Origin: Gammaproteobacteria bacterium | GTDB lineage: Bacteria; Pseudomonadota; Gammaproteobacteria; Pseudomonadales; Azotimanducaceae | Reading direction: 5' to 3' | Assembly: GCA_004356895.1 (NCBI GenBank) | Contig: SMWK01000284.1 | Location: 1 to 35,128 of the forward strand | DNA: 35,128 nt | Part shown: positions 4,442-26,787 of the stretch, in pieces | How the letters are laid out: each line of letters begins with the position of its first letter | How positions within the stretch are numbered: position 1 is the stretch's first letter | Notes under the pieces: model-generated | The model's database searches: none | What the model saw: the letters and a program-made list of their open reading frames with translations, nothing else | What the model was told of the DNA's origin: nothing | Made by a program: the position numbers and the translations under genes

Positions 4442-5758
4442 TCAACCCATAAACCGGGCGAAACCAGCCAGATCGTCACGCGACTCGTTGATGAGTTCCG
4501 CCACCCCCGCAAGAGCCTCCCAATCAAGACCGAGGCTGGCTGCTGCTGCCTCATCGAGGGGGCTTGGCGGGCTATCGTTCAGTCCTTGTGCGCCAAGGGT
4601 TTTGCGAGCGAGCGACAATAGGTTCACGTATGTAGCATTATTGCCTTCGTAATCGGTCGCGTACTGAAAGCGGACAGCGTCGGAAACTTCCTGAGGAAGC
4701 GCCCATAGTTCTAACAAGGCACTGGCAACTACCTCCCGGGGTAACTGCAGGACCTGTTGATCGATGAACGTATGCGGCAGATGGCGGTTTGCCTCCTGCA
4801 GTGCGCAGATAGTCGCAAAATACGGTGCAAACACATGACCTAACACGAGTGTACCGAAATTAGCCAGGAGACCGGAGAGGTAACACAGTCCGATGATCGG
4901 ACGTTGTCTCGCTGGTATATGCCTCGCGAGCGCCTCCATCGTAGCGGCACAGAACACCGTATCAAGCCAGAATGGTGGCAGACCACCGACATGGGAACGT
5001 GGCAGGCGCAAACTTTCGCCGATGGCGATGCCTAAAGCCATGCTCATCGCTGTATCGGCGCCCAGGATCCGCACTACCGCATCCTCGATAGACTTGGCGG
5101 GTGGGTTGGCGTTGAGGAAAGCGGAGTTTGCCCAGCCCAGGATCCGAGCTGCGATGCTTGGATCGGTCTCGATAATCCCAACCAACTCCCCCAGGCTATA
5201 ATTCGGATCGGCTTGCAGCGTAATGATGCGCTGTGCCGACTCCGGCAAGGGGGGAATCTGCAGCGTCTCGTCCAGGCGCTTTTGAATTCTCAACTCAGTG
5301 AAGTTGTTCAGCGCTTCGCTGATCAGTGACACATCTTCAGTCCGTGATGACTGGATCTGTTCGCCGCTTAACGAAGTCGTTAGCCGACAGGTGCGTGTTT
5401 CAAAGTAACCGTTCAGCAGGGCTGATCCGTTGGTTTGCAGATATGCCCCCGGCACGGTGCTCGTCAGAGCCAGATCGTTACGATCGAGCAACGTCTCGTC
5501 GACGATCACAGGCACGTCGTAGAATCCGGGAACAGCGGATGTGGTTTCGGCAACTTCGCAAGGTTCCGCGCATAGTTCGATCTTGGTGATGCGCTGTAGA
5601 GCCTGAATATCGAACAGCGCCAGTTCCGGCACGATGACCTGGACCCGGTTGCTGCCACGGCTCATCAATACACCACGTACCCTGGCCTCAGGGGGCGGGC
5701 TGACGTAGGGTTTCAGGTCTTTCCACTGCAGGGTTTGCTGGGCGGAAACGTGCGCCAT
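4442..5758 (-). CDS. HDOD-domain signalling protein with N-terminal YbaK-like domain
   Basis: The 438-residue protein has two parts. Residues about 168-370 form an HDOD domain, recognisable from IPPLPESAQRIITLQADPNYSLGELVGIIETDPSIAARILGWANSAF and the AVVRILGADTAMSMALGIAIG block. HDOD domains resemble HD phosphohydrolases without the catalytic metal site and usually act in regulation. Residues about 25-125 contain VPGFYDVPVIVDETLL followed by AYLQTNGS, which resembles the YbaK/ProX aminoacyl-tRNA deacylase fold; this is a weaker, pattern-based call. There are no membrane segments. A cytoplasmic regulator is likely, but its target is unknown. The gene is downstream of recG across a 124-base gap with two palindromes. 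Start ATG at 5758 has only a poor ribosome-binding site. Confidence 0.85.
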   Translation of the reverse strand: MAHVSAQQTLQWKDLKPYVSPPPEARVRGVLMSRGSNRVQVIVPELALFDIQALQRITKIELCAEPCEVAETTSAVPGFYDVPVIVDETLLDRNDLALTSTVPGAYLQTNGSALLNGYFETRTCRLTTSLSGEQIQSSRTEDVSLISEALNNFTELRIQKRLDETLQIPPLPESAQRIITLQADPNYSLGELVGIIETDPSIAARILGWANSAFLNANPPAKSIEDAVVRILGADTAMSMALGIAIGESLRLPRSHVGGLPPFWLDTVFCAATMEALARHIPARQRPIIGLCYLSGLLANFGTLVLGHVFAPYFATICALQEANRHLPHTFIDQQVLQLPREVVASALLELWALPQEVSDAVRFQYATDYEGNNATYVNLLSLARKTLGAQGLNDSPPSPLDEAAAASLGLDWEALAGVAELINESRDDLAGFARFMG

Positions 5759-5882: not shown

Positions 5883-7892
5883 TTATACGGAAATGTGGCC
5901 GGTATCCGCAGGTGCCCACGCTTCGAGAAGGCGCTTTACGGCTCCGGGATCTTCCTTGAGCAGCCGATCTCCGGTCGCGATCACCTGTGGCATCAGGTGT
6001 GCGTGACTGCGGAGATCAGCTACGCGGAATTGCTGCTCGCCGGTTTGTCTCGTGCCCAGCAACTCGCCAGGTCCACGTAGTTTCAAATCCTGCTCAGCGA
6101 TGAAAAAACCGTCGCAGCTTTTGCGAATTGTTTGCAACCTGGTCCGTGCGGTTTCGCTGAGCGGCGATTTGTACAACAAAATACAGTGAGAAGATTCTCT
6201 CCCTCTACCGATGCGACCTCGCAGTTGGTGTAGTTGAGACAAACCCATGCGTTCGGGATTCTCTATAACCATCAACGTTGCATTCGTCACGTCCACACCG
6301 ACTTCGACAACGGTTGTTGCGACAAGAAGTTGAATCCTTCCGTCCTTGAAATCGTTCATCGTCTGCCCTTTCTCGGCACTCGGCATGCGCCCGTGTAGCA
6401 AACCAACACGTATTTGCGGCAGAGATTTTCGTAACAGTTGCTCGGTAGACTCCGCCGCCGCAGCTTCGAGCTGTTCGGAATCTTCTATCAGTGGACACAC
6501 CCAATAGGCTTGCTGACCTGTAGCGAGCACCTCCCCGACTCGCCTGATGACCTCCTCCCGGCGGCTCTCCGGTACGGTACGGGTCTCTATGGGTTGGCGC
6601 CCCTTTGGCAGCTCGTCTATGAGTGATATGTCCATGTCCGCATATAAAGCCATGGTCAGTGTGCGTGGTATGGGCGTGGCGGTCATGACAAGCTGGTGAG
6701 CCGCTCGACCCTTGTTCTTGAGCGCCATGCGCTGGTGAACCCCGAACCGGTGCTGCTCATCGACGATTGTGAGTGCGAGATTTTTGAAAACCACCGAGTT
6801 CTGGAACAGCGCATGGGTACCAACGGCAACCAGGGCCTTACCTTCAGCTATGGCAGCCTGACACTGCCTGCGCACTTTTACTGTTTGTCGACCCGTGAGA
6901 AGTATTACATTTATTCCAAGCGGCTCGAGCCAGTTAGAGAAAGTGAGATAGTGTTGTTCTGCAAGAATTTCCGTCGGGGCCATCAGAGCCGTCTGCATAC
7001 CGTGTTCGGCGGCTCGAATCGCCGCGAACGCGGCGACGACCGTCTTGCCGGAACCGACATCACCCTGGAGCAGACGCAACATCGGTTGGGTGCGTGCCAG
7101 ATCTTCCAGAACTTCGGTGACCACCCGCCGTTGTGCGCCAGTGAGTTTGAACCCGAGAGACTGAAGCAACACTCGCCCGAGTTGCTGGGCTTGTGGAAGA
7201 GGAATTGTGCGCTGGTGTGCGCGGTCTGATTGGCGGTGACGCATTATCAGGTAGTAGGCGACGAGTTCGTCTAAAGCAATCTTCTCCCGGGCGACTGCGA
7301 TTTCCTGCAAGGGCGTATCCGCGGGTGGTGCATGTAAAAACAGCAGAGTGCTATATGGCGTGCCGGAATTTTCAGGCCACTTCATGGCTTGCAGCTGGAG
7401 GGTCAAACTACGAATACGTGCCTGCCCTAAACCTTTGGTGGTGTGATAGACAGGTGTGAGTTCCCGTTCTGTCTCGGGTGGTAGAGAGTGATAGCCGCGG
7501 TACTCCGGATGCGTCATCTCTAAACCACCGGCACCGAAGCGGACCTCGCCGAAAGCCCGCACGAACATCCCAGCGCTCAGGCTTGCTTGTTGTTGTCTGG
7601 AAAAATAAAAGAAACGAAGTCCAAGAAACCCGGAATCATCTGCAATCGTGACCAGCCAGCTACGGCGTCGTCCGTAGGTTATCTTGGATTCCACCACTCG
7701 ACCCACGACTAGGCATTCGGTTTGCGCCCTGACCTCGCGCAGCGGTACTAACCGAGTACGATCCTGGTAACGCATCGGCAAATGCAGGAGAAGATCGGTG
7801 GTGCGCAAGATGCCTAATCGGGCGAGTTTGCCTTGCAAACTGGGTCCAACCCCCTTGAGCGTCTCAATGGGTTGGTTGGGGCCGGTAATCAC
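5883..7892 (-). CDS. recG: ATP-dependent DNA helicase RecG
   Basis: RecG remodels stalled replication forks and branched recombination intermediates. The 669-residue protein has an N-terminal wedge (OB-fold) domain containing the characteristic RYQDRT and LVVGRVVESK sequences. The helicase core follows: Walker A GDVGSGKT at 277-284, DEQH box at 378-381 (VDEQHRFGVHQR), TATPIPRT, then the RecG signature MALYADMDISLIDELPKGRQPI and the motif VI region LHQLRGRIGRG. Length is close to the E. coli enzyme (about 690). The start is GTG at 7892 (encoding MITGPNQPIETLKGVGPSLQ), which matches the family N terminus. It lies 3 bases after the ridA stop in its repaired frame, implying co-transcription and coupling with ridA. 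A strong hairpin follows the stop. Confidence 0.97.
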   Translation of the reverse strand: MITGPNQPIETLKGVGPSLQGKLARLGILRTTDLLLHLPMRYQDRTRLVPLREVRAQTECLVVGRVVESKITYGRRRSWLVTIADDSGFLGLRFFYFSRQQQASLSAGMFVRAFGEVRFGAGGLEMTHPEYRGYHSLPPETERELTPVYHTTKGLGQARIRSLTLQLQAMKWPENSGTPYSTLLFLHAPPADTPLQEIAVAREKIALDELVAYYLIMRHRQSDRAHQRTIPLPQAQQLGRVLLQSLGFKLTGAQRRVVTEVLEDLARTQPMLRLLQGDVGSGKTVVAAFAAIRAAEHGMQTALMAPTEILAEQHYLTFSNWLEPLGINVILLTGRQTVKVRRQCQAAIAEGKALVAVGTHALFQNSVVFKNLALTIVDEQHRFGVHQRMALKNKGRAAHQLVMTATPIPRTLTMALYADMDISLIDELPKGRQPIETRTVPESRREEVIRRVGEVLATGQQAYWVCPLIEDSEQLEAAAAESTEQLLRKSLPQIRVGLLHGRMPSAEKGQTMNDFKDGRIQLLVATTVVEVGVDVTNATLMVIENPERMGLSQLHQLRGRIGRGRESSHCILLYKSPLSETARTRLQTIRKSCDGFFIAEQDLKLRGPGELLGTRQTGEQQFRVADLRSHAHLMPQVIATGDRLLKEDPGAVKRLLEAWAPADTGHISV

Positions 7893-7895
7893 ACA

Positions 7896-8278
7896 TCAAT
7901 CGAAGACCAGGATGGCTTCGACCTCTACTTGGGCAAGTTTCGGTAGTTCGGCGACGCCCACAGCCGCCCGGGCTGGAAATGGGGGCTAAAAAACTCTTCC
8001 ATCGCCTCGTTAACCGCTTGGAAATTGCTCAGATCGGTGAGGTACACCGTGAGCTTGACAAGGTTATCGAGCGTACCGCCCGCAGCGGCGGCGACCGCGC
8101 TGAGGTTTCGAAACACCTGCCTTGCCTGCTCGTCGAACCCACCTGCTACGAGCACCATGGTTTGTGGGACTAAGGGAATCTGTCCGGACAGGTAGACCGT
8201 TAGCCCAACCCGCACCGCTTGGGAGTAAGTGCCAATTGCTGCGGGTGCCATTTCGGTGGTAATGGTCGTTTTGGACAC
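7896..8278 (-). pseudogene. ridA: RidA family deaminase with apparent 1-base frameshift
   Basis: RidA hydrolyses reactive enamine/imine intermediates from PLP enzymes to 2-keto acids. The N-terminal part is typical (PAAIGTYSQAVRVG, YLSGQIPLVP, VFRNLSAVAAAAGG, VKLTVYLTDLSNFQAVNEAMEEFF). The open frame then ends SPHFQPGRLWASPNYRNLPK and stops at 7925, which is not RidA-like. The next frame, from about 7980 down to a TGA at 7896-7898, encodes FPARAAVGVAELPKLAQVEVEAILVFD, the expected C terminus with the catalytic arginine. The switch falls in a run of five C on the coding strand (G run 7981-7985). Adding one C gives SPPFPARAAVGV and a normal 127-residue protein. Either this is a sequencing or assembly error or a true inactivating deletion; I cannot tell which. 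As it reads, the product is 117 residues and lacks the active-site arginine. It sits between spoT and recG. Confidence 0.88.
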
Positions 8279-8330: not shown

Positions 8331-10574
8331 TCATGCGGCTACGCGGGTAATTGTCAGTACGCTACCAATGGTTCGCAAGCGGCGTATGCCACGGGCCAGG
8401 TGGTTTCTATCGCACACGGAGAGCGTCACGATGACGCTTGAGACTTGGGCGTTTCGTTCCTCCACGTGGATATTTTCCACGCCAGCATCGGCATCGTGGA
8501 GCGTCGCTGCCAGCTCTGCGATGATCCCCTTTTTACGGTTGACCTCGATTCGCAACGTGGTGAGGAATTCTCCCTCGGTGGTCGCCCAGTAGGCTGGAAT
8601 GATCCCCTTGCTACCGCGCCGCCGCCGGATTTCGGTCATGTTACGACAGGTTTCGACGTGTACGACAAAACCTTTACCGGGCGTCATATGCCCGACGATG
8701 GGATCGCCAGGGACCGGTCCGCAACATCTACCGTAGTTGATGACAAGCCCCTCTCCGCCGTGGATTGCCACCGGTCCTCCGGTTTCCACAGGGACGCCCT
8801 GGAAATCAGGGTTATCGGCTTCCAGCAGGCGCTGCGCGACTACGTAGGATAAAAGCTCACCGTTACCGATGGCTTCGAGTACCTCGTTCAAACGTCGCAC
8901 GCCAAACTCCTTGAACACACGTCGTAATCGACGGAAATCCAGATCGTTGATGCTCTTGTTCGCGTTTGCCAGCGAACGATTCAGCAGCCGACGGCCGAAG
9001 GCGATGGAGTCGCCCTGTTGCTGGTCTTTCAGGGCGTGGCGGATACCACTGCGTGCTTTGCTGGAAACCACGAACGTGAGCCAGTCCGGGTTTGGCTTCG
9101 CGCCGTCTGAGGTGATGATCTCTACGCTCTGGCCACTCTGCAGTTGTTGAGAGAGCGGCGAGAGGTTCCGATCTATTCGACAAGCCACGCAGCGATTGCC
9201 GATATCGGTATGAACTGCGTAGGCAAAATCCACTGGGCAAGCGCCCCGTGGTAGTTCCAGAATGTTACCCCGTGGAGTGAATATGTAGACTTCATCGGGG
9301 AACAGGTCAATTTTCAGACTTTCAACGAACTCGAGGGGATTTCCAGCACGCTGCTGTAGATCCAACAGGTCTTTCACCCAGCGCCGTGCCCGGTGCCGGC
9401 TTGTCTGATGGTCACCCTGATCGGTCTTGTATAGCCAGTGCCCGGCGATACCGGCATCCGCCACTGTGGCCATGTCTCGAGTACGAATCTGCACCTCGAT
9501 GGGTACGCCGTGCATGCCGAAAAGGGTCGTGTGCAGCGATTGGTAACCATTGACCTTGGGGATCGCTATGTAATCTTTGAAGCGCCCCGCCACTGGCTTG
9601 TAAAGGTTATGCACCACGCCGAGTGCGCGGTAGCAATCGTCGTCCTGTGCAACGACGATACGAAAGCCAAACACGTCCATGATCTCAGAGAACGGTTTAT
9701 GTTGGGATTTCATCTTCCGGTAGATGGAATAGAGGTGTTTCTCCCGGCCTACCACCTCGGCGTTTATCCCATCGGTAGTAAGTGCGTTGGCGATAGATTT
9801 CCTCAATTCGTTCATCAATGCACTACGGTTACCGCGGGCCGCCTTCACTGCCCGGCCGATACGATCGGCGCGTAAGGGGTATAAGGCGTGAAAGCCGAGG
9901 TCCTCAAACTCAAGCTTCATCGTATGGATACCGAGCCGATTCGCGATTGGTGCGTAAAACTCCAGTGTTTCCCGCGCGATCCGTCTGCGCTGTTCGTTGG
10001 ACATGACGCCGATGGTGCGCATGTTATGCAATCGGTCGGCGAGTTTGACCATGATCACGCGAAGATCCTTGGCCATGGCCATGGCCATCTTCTGGAAGTT
10101 TTCGGCCTGGGCCTCAGCGTGGGAGCGGAATATTTTTTCGAGCTTCGAGACGCCGTCGACGATTTCGGCAACGGGTTTTCCGAAACGTTTGCCAAGTGCT
10201 TGTTTAGCGACCCCGGTGTCTTCAATAACGTCGTGCAACAGGGCGGCAATCACGGTCTGATGATCCATGCCCATGGTGGCCAGGATGTTAGCCACTGCCA
10301 GTGGGTGGGAAATATAGGGATGGCCGGAAAGGCGGAGCTGGCCCTTGTGGGCAGACTCAGCGTAAAGATAGGCTTTGTGAACCTGCTGAACCTGCTTTTG
10401 CGGCAGATACTTTTCCAGAGCCTCGATAAGCGACTCTATGGTGGTCGGTGCTGCTACGTCATCGCGCCGGGCTTGTTTCGCCAGCCGCTGCAGAAAGTAG
10501 GATTTGGTGGCAGGCTCAGCCGGAGGCTCAGCTCCGGCCTGGGTCGAAGTCTCGGGCCTCGCGGTTTTCACCAT
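8331..10574 (-). CDS. spoT: bifunctional (p)ppGpp synthetase/hydrolase
   Basis: This 747-residue RelA/SpoT-homologue makes and degrades the stringent-response alarmone. The HD hydrolase domain is intact: HDVIED at 114-119, and [10 protein letters not shown]. The synthetase domain has [22 protein letters not shown] and [24 protein letters not shown] at 331-334 is the RxKD motif known from bifunctional enzymes, not the ExDD of monofunctional RelA. A TGS domain (about 427-490, [31 protein letters not shown]) and a C-terminal ACT domain (about 675-745) follow. Relative to E. coli SpoT it has about 45 extra N-terminal residues. The 5' end overlaps rpoZ by 47 bases. No alternative ATG, GTG or TTG start exists nearby except GTG as the second codon, which is better spaced from the AGGAG just before the ATG. 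Order gmk-rpoZ-spoT is the usual gammaproteobacterial one. Confidence 0.96.
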
Positions 10575-14731: not shown

Positions 14732-18810
<4,079 letters not shown>

Positions 18811-25062: not shown

Positions 25063-25743
25063 GTGGGGCGTATCGAGTTCCATCAAGTCACTAAGCGCTT
25101 TGAGAATGGCCACGAAGCGCTGAAGGACATTTCGTTGGAGTTTGAAGAAGGCTCAATGACCTTCCTGACAGGACATTCCGGCGCGGGCAAAAGCACTTTT
25201 TTGAAATTGTTGATGTGTTTGGAGAAACCTTCCAGGGGCCAGATCCTGGTCAACGGCGTCAACGTAACGCAGATTAGTTCGAGACGGCTGTCTTACTACC
25301 GCCAGAATCTCGGCGCCGTATACCAGGATCACCACCTGCTTGCACACCGTACGGTGTTCGACAATGTCGCGTTGCCGTTGCGTGTCTCTGGTATGCGGGA
25401 AAAAGACATCGCCCGGCGCGTGCGGGCCGCGTTGTCGCGTGTGGGTTTGTTGCCCAAGGAGCAGTTATTCCCTGGCCATCTTTCGACAGGTGAGCAACAG
25501 CGGGTTGGAATCGCACGAGCAGTGGTGCCGAGACCGAAGATCCTTCTTGCGGATGAGCCAACAGGTAATCTCGATCCTGAGCTATCGCAGGACATCATGC
25601 ATCTGTTTGAACAGTTCAATCAGGTAGGTACGACCGTGATCGTCGCCAGCCACGATCATAGTCTGATCGAGTCTATGGGGTCTCGGATCATCGAACTCAG
25701 CAACGGTAGTATCGTCAGGGATGAGATTAATGTGTCACGCTAG
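25063..25743 (+). CDS. ftsE: cell division ATP-binding protein FtsE
   Basis: FtsE is the ATPase of the FtsEX complex, which relays ATP hydrolysis across the membrane to activate septal peptidoglycan hydrolases. The 226-residue ABC protein has Walker [10 protein letters not shown] (37-45), the FtsE-typical Q-loop [16 protein letters not shown], the signature [16 protein letters not shown] (Thr where LSGGE is usual) and Walker [12 protein letters not shown]. The GTG start at 25063 directly abuts the ftsY TAA, so the two are translationally coupled. ftsX follows after an unusually long 78-base gap containing a hairpin. Confidence 0.97.
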
Positions 25744-25767
25744 CTTGTTCATGAATAATCCAGGCTA

Positions 25768-25806
25768 GGAGTCTGCGCGGTAGCAATTTTCTACCGCGCA
25801 AACTCC
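25768..25806 (+). repeat. 16-bp near-perfect hairpin between ftsE and ftsX
   Basis: The arms 25768-25783 (GGAGTCTGCGCGGTAG) and 25791-25806 (CTACCGCGCAAACTCC) pair at 15 of 16 positions (one C-A mismatch) around the loop CAATTTT. It begins 24 bases after the ftsE stop. It ends 15 bases before the ftsX ATG, just upstream of the GAGGT ribosome-binding site. There is no U-tract directly after the stem, so partial termination, RNA processing or a small repeat insertion are all possible. Confidence 0.65.
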
Positions 25807-25821
25807 CAATAGAGGTACTCG

Positions 25822-26787
25822 ATGGCGCGGAAAGCCAAACCCCGCAAAGACCCCTGGCCGAGGCCACATACCGGACCGTTGACCTGGTGTCGCGATCACC
25901 TGCGGGTCGCGCGCGATACGCTGCACTTCGTGAGCGCGCGGCTTGGGACGAGCTTGCTCGTGTGGCTGTTGCTGGGAATTGCTCTGGCCCTACCGGCGGG
26001 GTTGTTCTTGTTGCAGATCAACCTTGCGGGTATGACAACAGCGTGGGAAGGTCGTCCTGGATTATCCGTGTACTTCGATCTGGGTTTGGCGGATGCCGAG
26101 ATAGCGGCCACGGCCGCGGCGCTGGGTAGCCGAAGCGAAATCAGTGTCGTGAAAGTCACCTCCCAGGCCGAGGCGTTGCAAGAATTCCAGACTTACACCA
26201 GCCTCGCGAATGCTTTGGATCTACTCGCGGAAAACCCCTTACCGGCATCGTTACGAGCGACGCTTGCGGAAGGTGCGTCACTTGCGGATCTTGAATTGGT
26301 TGCAGAGTTTGCCGGTCGCAGCGCTGGAGTGAGTGAAGTCGTGGTTGAAAAAACCTGGCTGGAGAGGGTGACCGACATTACCCGGATAGTCAGCCGATTG
26401 GGTCTGATGTTGGGTGTATTATTTGGCGTGGGGGCAGTGCTGGTAACCGCAACCTCTGTACGGTTGGCGATCGAAGCGCGATTGGAGGAGCTTAGGGTTT
26501 TGAAGTTAGTCGGTGCTACAGATCGCCAGATTCGCCGTCCATACCTGTACTTCGGTGCTTTTTACGGTCTTGGTGGTGGGTTGATCGCCGCTATGCTGAT
26601 AAGCCTGTGCCTGCTGATCGTTGAGACGCCGCTCACGCATCTGCTCGGGAGTTACGGCCAGGACTTGGAAATGAGTGGCTTCGACCCCAAATTCCTGTTG
26701 GCGCTGTTGGCGGTTGGTGGAATCCTCGGTATCGCGGGGGCGCTGCTGGCGGCGAGACAGCGATTGGCTGACCTGGAAATCACCTGA
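25822..26787 (+). CDS. ftsX: cell division membrane protein FtsX
   Basis: FtsX is the membrane half of FtsEX. The 321-residue protein has a basic cytoplasmic N terminus (MARKAKPRKDPWPRPHTG), a first transmembrane helix (LLVWLLLGIALALPAGLFLLQINL, about 46-70) and a periplasmic domain of about 130 residues that in other species contacts EnvC-type activators. Three C-terminal helices follow, including MLGVLFGVGAVLVTATSVRLAI, followed by EARLEELRVLKLVGATDRQIRRPYLYFGAFYGLGGG, the FtsX/MacB-type coupling segment. The length is close to E. coli FtsX (352). ATG 25822 has GAGGT 6 bases upstream. rpoH is the next gene. Confidence 0.95.
   Translation: MARKAKPRKDPWPRPHTGPLTWCRDHLRVARDTLHFVSARLGTSLLVWLLLGIALALPAGLFLLQINLAGMTTAWEGRPGLSVYFDLGLADAEIAATAAALGSRSEISVVKVTSQAEALQEFQTYTSLANALDLLAENPLPASLRATLAEGASLADLELVAEFAGRSAGVSEVVVEKTWLERVTDITRIVSRLGLMLGVLFGVGAVLVTATSVRLAIEARLEELRVLKLVGATDRQIRRPYLYFGAFYGLGGGLIAAMLISLCLLIVETPLTHLLGSYGQDLEMSGFDPKFLLALLAVGGILGIAGALLAARQRLADLEIT

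Follow-up and report, generated by a model that had tools for sequence, protein, structure and literature searches.

Proteins of the archetypal RidA (YjgF, UK114) subfamily, to which PA5339 of Pseudomonas aeruginosa belongs, are described by the profiles TIGR00004 and PF01042. In the excerpts at hand of the published reports, a change of the catalytic Arg to Ala nearly abolished imine hydrolysis by plant and Salmonella RidA (PMC4433059), a ridA mutant of P. aeruginosa showed growth and motility defects that were corrected by isoleucine, and IlvA was the main source of 2-aminoacrylate in Salmonella (PMC9239102). No naturally broken bacterial ridA appeared among the literature matches listed, as judged from titles and abstract openings. 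The ridA gene described here departs from the archetypal RidA in that its product ends off-frame, without the arginine whose change to Ala had this effect in plant and Salmonella RidA (PMC4433059). In its form the break is alike to the single-base frameshift pseudogenes or errors of draft bacterial genomes, as it concerns one base of an otherwise intact gene in this species only. Nothing notable distinguishes it from the usual draft frameshift pseudogenes, and the gene hit here is a conserved one. The break is probably an ordinary single-base break and no new kind of biology.

The ridA gene between spoT and recG is split over two frames

The window, by which we mean the whole stretch of 35,128 nucleotides that was analysed, makes up contig C234 of a draft assembly that totals 3,072,997 bases over 319 contigs, with a completeness of 73%. 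By RecG, uncultured Proteobacteria and Gammaproteobacteria come closest among the named relatives, and several further relatives carry the label Pseudomonadales; two genomes used for comparison, G001 and G002, are from the genus of this genome. On the minus strand the genes are ordered gmk, a gap without any gene recognised, spoT (8331-10574, 747 residues), ridA and recG (5883-7892, 669 residues). Both neighbours, spoT upstream and recG downstream, are open frames, in agreement with the earlier note, to which the locus looked otherwise intact.

The N-terminal frame of ridA (minus strand, 7925-8278) begins with GTG at 8278 and ends with TAG at 7927-7925, and by translation gives a product of 117 residues, which stays in the family frame up to about codon 98 and then carries about 19 off-frame residues before the stop. 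The C-terminal frame (minus strand, 7896-7985), directly preceded by a TAG at 7988-7986, is open from 7985 to the TGA at 7898-7896, and the GTG of recG at 7892 lies three bases past this second stop. Two runs are found at the switch site, one of six A and one of five G, the latter occupying 7981-7985 of the plus strand. The catalytic arginine (Arg105 of E. coli TdcF) is encoded in the C-terminal frame only and is absent from the translated 117-residue product. The positions of both stops, the five-G run, the distance to recG and the displacement of the arginine into the other frame, all claimed before from the letters alone, were thus confirmed.

Pfam PF01042 covers residues 9-105 of the 117-residue product. 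Against TIGR00004, with a curated cut-off of 106.25 bits, the first frame alone scored 121.8 bits and the joined read-through protein 158.6 bits, indicating that the broken first frame passes the cut-off unaided. The joined frames match the whole family, and their best structure match is the solved chain 3k0t_A (residues 2-126, E 1.5e-42). The TIGR00004 profile, built without knowledge of this genome, placed the two pieces separately, at 7964-8269 and 7905-7994. In addition, a C-terminal stretch of 31 residues matched in its own frame (97%, E 1e-12) with a query built from the same DNA, the independent evidence being in this case the match to relatives. The two-frame arrangement is far beyond chance, and the break is real in the assembled sequence.

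Comparison with relatives

The earlier note had proposed that ridA is broken by one base and that the nearest relatives be compared. A total of 109 relative loci were scanned for RidA, of which 79 gave a match, reduced to 70 by the removal of identical aligned proteins, while the 30 loci without a match were dropped. All 70 distinct matches, including both genus mates, cross the switch region in one frame, supporting the one-base break, and the catalytic arginine is the same residue in every one of them. The alignment residues Pro100, Pro102, Ala103 and Arg104 are invariant in 70/70 relatives, and this limits the lesion to about codons 98-99. A switch downstream of codon 99 was rejected, since it would place His in column 100, which is Pro throughout. 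Codon 99 itself is variable, being Glu in 36, Gln in 14 and Pro in 4 of the 70 relatives, and Ala and Ser in the two genus mates, neither of which carries a run of five at the switch site. A simple change of run length implies Pro at this codon, and its rarity there suggests that the five-base run at 7981-7985 may have arisen through the deletion. When 57 relative genomes were searched together with this one, 56 of the 58 gave a match, and no internal stop was counted inside any match among those listed. Compared with each relative that gave a match, ridA is one base short here, and the break is restricted to this genome among those examined.

The 28 codons detached after the switch differ from those of G001 by 8 silent changes and 1 replacement, and from those of G002 by 8 silent changes and 2 replacements. 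Replacements in ridA that are unique to one genome number 5 here, 6 in G001 and 11 in G002, so that neither the detached codons nor the 5 against 6 branch replacements gave a sign of further decay or relaxed selection in ridA. Two of the five replacements here are rare elsewhere: among 68 relatives, Leu26 is found in none and Ala92 in two. Decay could not be argued from so little. By this codon pattern the frame appears to have been under selection until very recently, or to be so still, and the lesion would accordingly be either very recent or an assembly error.

Some relatives lack the gene altogether. Among 80 named recG loci, 38 carry ridA and spoT within about 1.2 kb, 13 carry spoT that close but no ridA within the fetched DNA, and 29 are arranged otherwise. 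The 13 loci are L045, L047, L049, L051, L067, L068, L070, L077, L082, L105, L112, L113 and L115, and no remnant of ridA was seen by eye in the 7 of these 13 spoT-recG junctions that were read. From 18 genomes picked for missing or weak ridA (17 distinct, G008 and G062 giving the same places), TIGR00004 gave no match in 7 (6 distinct), five of these six being from the above list, and 3 of the 18 reached the cut-off, one of them barely. IlvA scored over the cut-off in 10 of the 18 (9 distinct), and three distinct genomes (G008 = G062, G063 and G064) combine such an IlvA with the lack of any TIGR00004 match, each still having a single weak PF01042 protein (31 to 34 bits). The retention of IlvA in these three indicates that a true loss is viable. 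The RidA-less relatives show no more than that cells can live with IlvA while lacking archetypal RidA; some of these lineages are remote, and ridA may never have occupied their spoT-recG slot. Such relatives (for instance L045, L047, L049 and L068) resemble this genome in having no working archetypal RidA at the locus, and differ from it in that their gene is wholly gone, whereas all but one base of ridA is still present here.

Frameshift scan of the assembly and the origin of the break

Using 55 stretches of G002 (712,984 bases) as reference, we scanned 61 stretches of this genome (605,268 bases, window included) for frameshifts. In total 132 frames were matched and 40,490 residues aligned, giving 5 candidates. 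The four candidates other than ridA, which by sequence look like GlnB, ribosomal protein L28, CoaD and one membrane protein, fall on or upstream of the probable start codon of a gene that is open, and arise from the stop-to-stop frames used in the scan; two of these four junctions have runs of at least 5 bases within 30 nt. Thus ridA was the sole broken gene found in about 40,000 aligned residues, and the aligned coding DNA of 116,558 nt contains 314 runs of at least 5 bases (the ridA run included), 68 of them of at least 6. In a sensitivity control, 129 of 198 simulated deletions were recovered overall, a slight overcount as frames already flagged were counted as found, and 118 of 141 away from the ends (65-84%). 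When only the window was scanned, with looser settings, 5 candidates were obtained against G002 and 3 against G001, ridA being among them both times and the others lying near frame ends or having large offsets. A generally error-ridden assembly is unsupported by the scan; errors of run length do not seem to be a habit of this assembly, yet a single isolated one may have occurred.

With G002 as the scan target, 7 candidates were obtained. Two genes of G002 read as interior breaks: one at about 8026 of L195, matching L239 16757-18268, and an HDOD-domain gene at about 10168 of L169, orthologous to 4442-5758 of the window. In alignment these show one extra base and two missing bases, and are not changes of a run by a single base; they could also be errors. 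A break or two per 120 kb may thus be usual among these drafts, whatever the cause.

An assembly error and a recent loss of the gene, the two readings offered by the earlier note, both still stand; they are almost equally likely, real loss being slightly favoured. The best explanation, to which we give a little better than an even chance, is a real and very recent loss of one base in ridA of the sequenced population, and we infer that the cells themselves, and not just the assembly, lack the base. The lost base need not be a base of the run, which is a poor fit to a run-length miscall and counts for a real loss, as do the single frame of all 70 relatives, the finding of ridA as the only broken gene in an assembly that does not look error-ridden, the absence of RidA from the same spoT-recG slot in relatives and the IlvA kept by the three distinct genomes without a TIGR00004 match. 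Against a real loss, a pure assembly error would show the same lack of decay, and RidA is kept in both genus mates and its loss is harmful in P. aeruginosa. An error of assembly or base calling, with ridA whole in the cells and one base dropped from the draft consensus, falls somewhat short of an even chance: it accords with the undecayed remainder of the gene, with the single frame of 70/70 relatives, with a site at which the adjoining runs, six A and five G, make a miscall conceivable, and with the fragmentary state of this incomplete draft in 319 contigs, and it is opposed by the many runs of the aligned coding DNA, none other of which accompanies a broken gene at the stated sensitivity, and by the many short contigs, which suggest a short-read assembly. 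In short-read assemblies five-base runs are seldom miscalled. The homopolymer itself, held by the earlier note to be the cause, is unsupported in that role, given the lack of a run of five in the genus mates, the rarity of Pro at codon 99 and the 314 runs with ridA as the only break found.

A mixture of strains, in which the break is present in part of the population and was taken up by the consensus, is a sub-case of the real recent loss and not additional to it. We consider this sub-case improbable. In its favour, a recent loss without decay has the look of a segregating mutation; against it, no second contig with an archetypal ridA was found in the genome, though binning could omit one. Programmed -1 frameshifting or slippage at the C run, by which some ribosomes would make full-length RidA, can hardly be credited. 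A -1 slip on the run would yield the family protein and the C-terminal frame looks selected, but the two-frame arrangement occurs in 0/70 relatives, a tandem slippery heptamer was not seen in the sequence, and the stretch of 86 nt starting at the run folds like shuffled sequences (z 0.10; 101 of 200 shuffles at least equal, by pseudoknot-free folding). A five-base run is also short for slippage. For want of conservation, heptamer and structure, programmed frameshifting in ridA was rejected.

Rid proteins, IlvA and other features of the genome

If the real recent loss is accepted, translation would leave the RidA frame at about codon 98 and stop about 19 codons on, and the 117-residue product, lacking the catalytic arginine and the remaining C terminus, should be inactive as an imine/enamine deaminase and is probably unstable. 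The cells would then rely on other Rid proteins, on IlvA handling little serine or on a tolerance of 2-aminoacrylate, the same fallback that RidA-less relatives must have. The earlier note had predicted accumulation of reactive enamines. In favour of this, a full-length IlvA is present (open frame of 506 codons, scoring over its cut-offs); against it, two other Rid-like proteins keep the arginine as read by eye, and the three RidA-less relatives keep IlvA. One of the two Rid-like proteins, on C79, has a signal-like N terminus and Arg at the equivalent place, and the other, on C69, has 169 residues and Arg at the place, and is below the Pfam cut-off with no NCBIfam match. A further protein on C259 (L002 802-2262, G000; 486 residues) begins with a twin-arginine-like N terminus followed by three consecutive Rid domains, none of which showed, by eye, an arginine at the catalytic position. 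A second full archetypal ridA was not found in this genome, which is 73% complete.

A real loss would be a further instance of RidA being lost while IlvA is intact, and the wholly RidA-less relatives would be the better material for asking how cells live without RidA. It is a tentative and rather doubtful proposal that the break is the first step of a loss completed in related lineages, the widespread archetypal RidA being dispensable in some uncultured Gammaproteobacteria that keep IlvA and erased there from the spoT-recG slot; if true, such lineages would need enamine-resistant target enzymes or an IlvA resisting enamine damage. If an error, the case is a warning that a broken gene which passes the TIGR00004 cut-off could be annotated as a working RidA.

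Elsewhere in the window, the genes at 15303-16364 (amino-acid-kinase-like) and, upstream of it, 16204-18810 (phosphomannomutase-like) overlap by about 160 bases as listed, and the kinase-like gene probably starts further inside its listed frame. A dispersed repeat, about 49 bases long and with a hairpin behind it, was found at 25738-25806, between the ftsE-like gene (25063-25743) and the ftsX-like gene (25822-26787), the hairpin being recognised by eye and by an inverted self-match. In G002 this repeat gave 40 matches over 713 kb, often paired on opposite strands at distances of about 70-290 bases, while about 570 kb of this genome gave one other copy; it looks like a REP or miniature-element family that has spread in one species of the genus.
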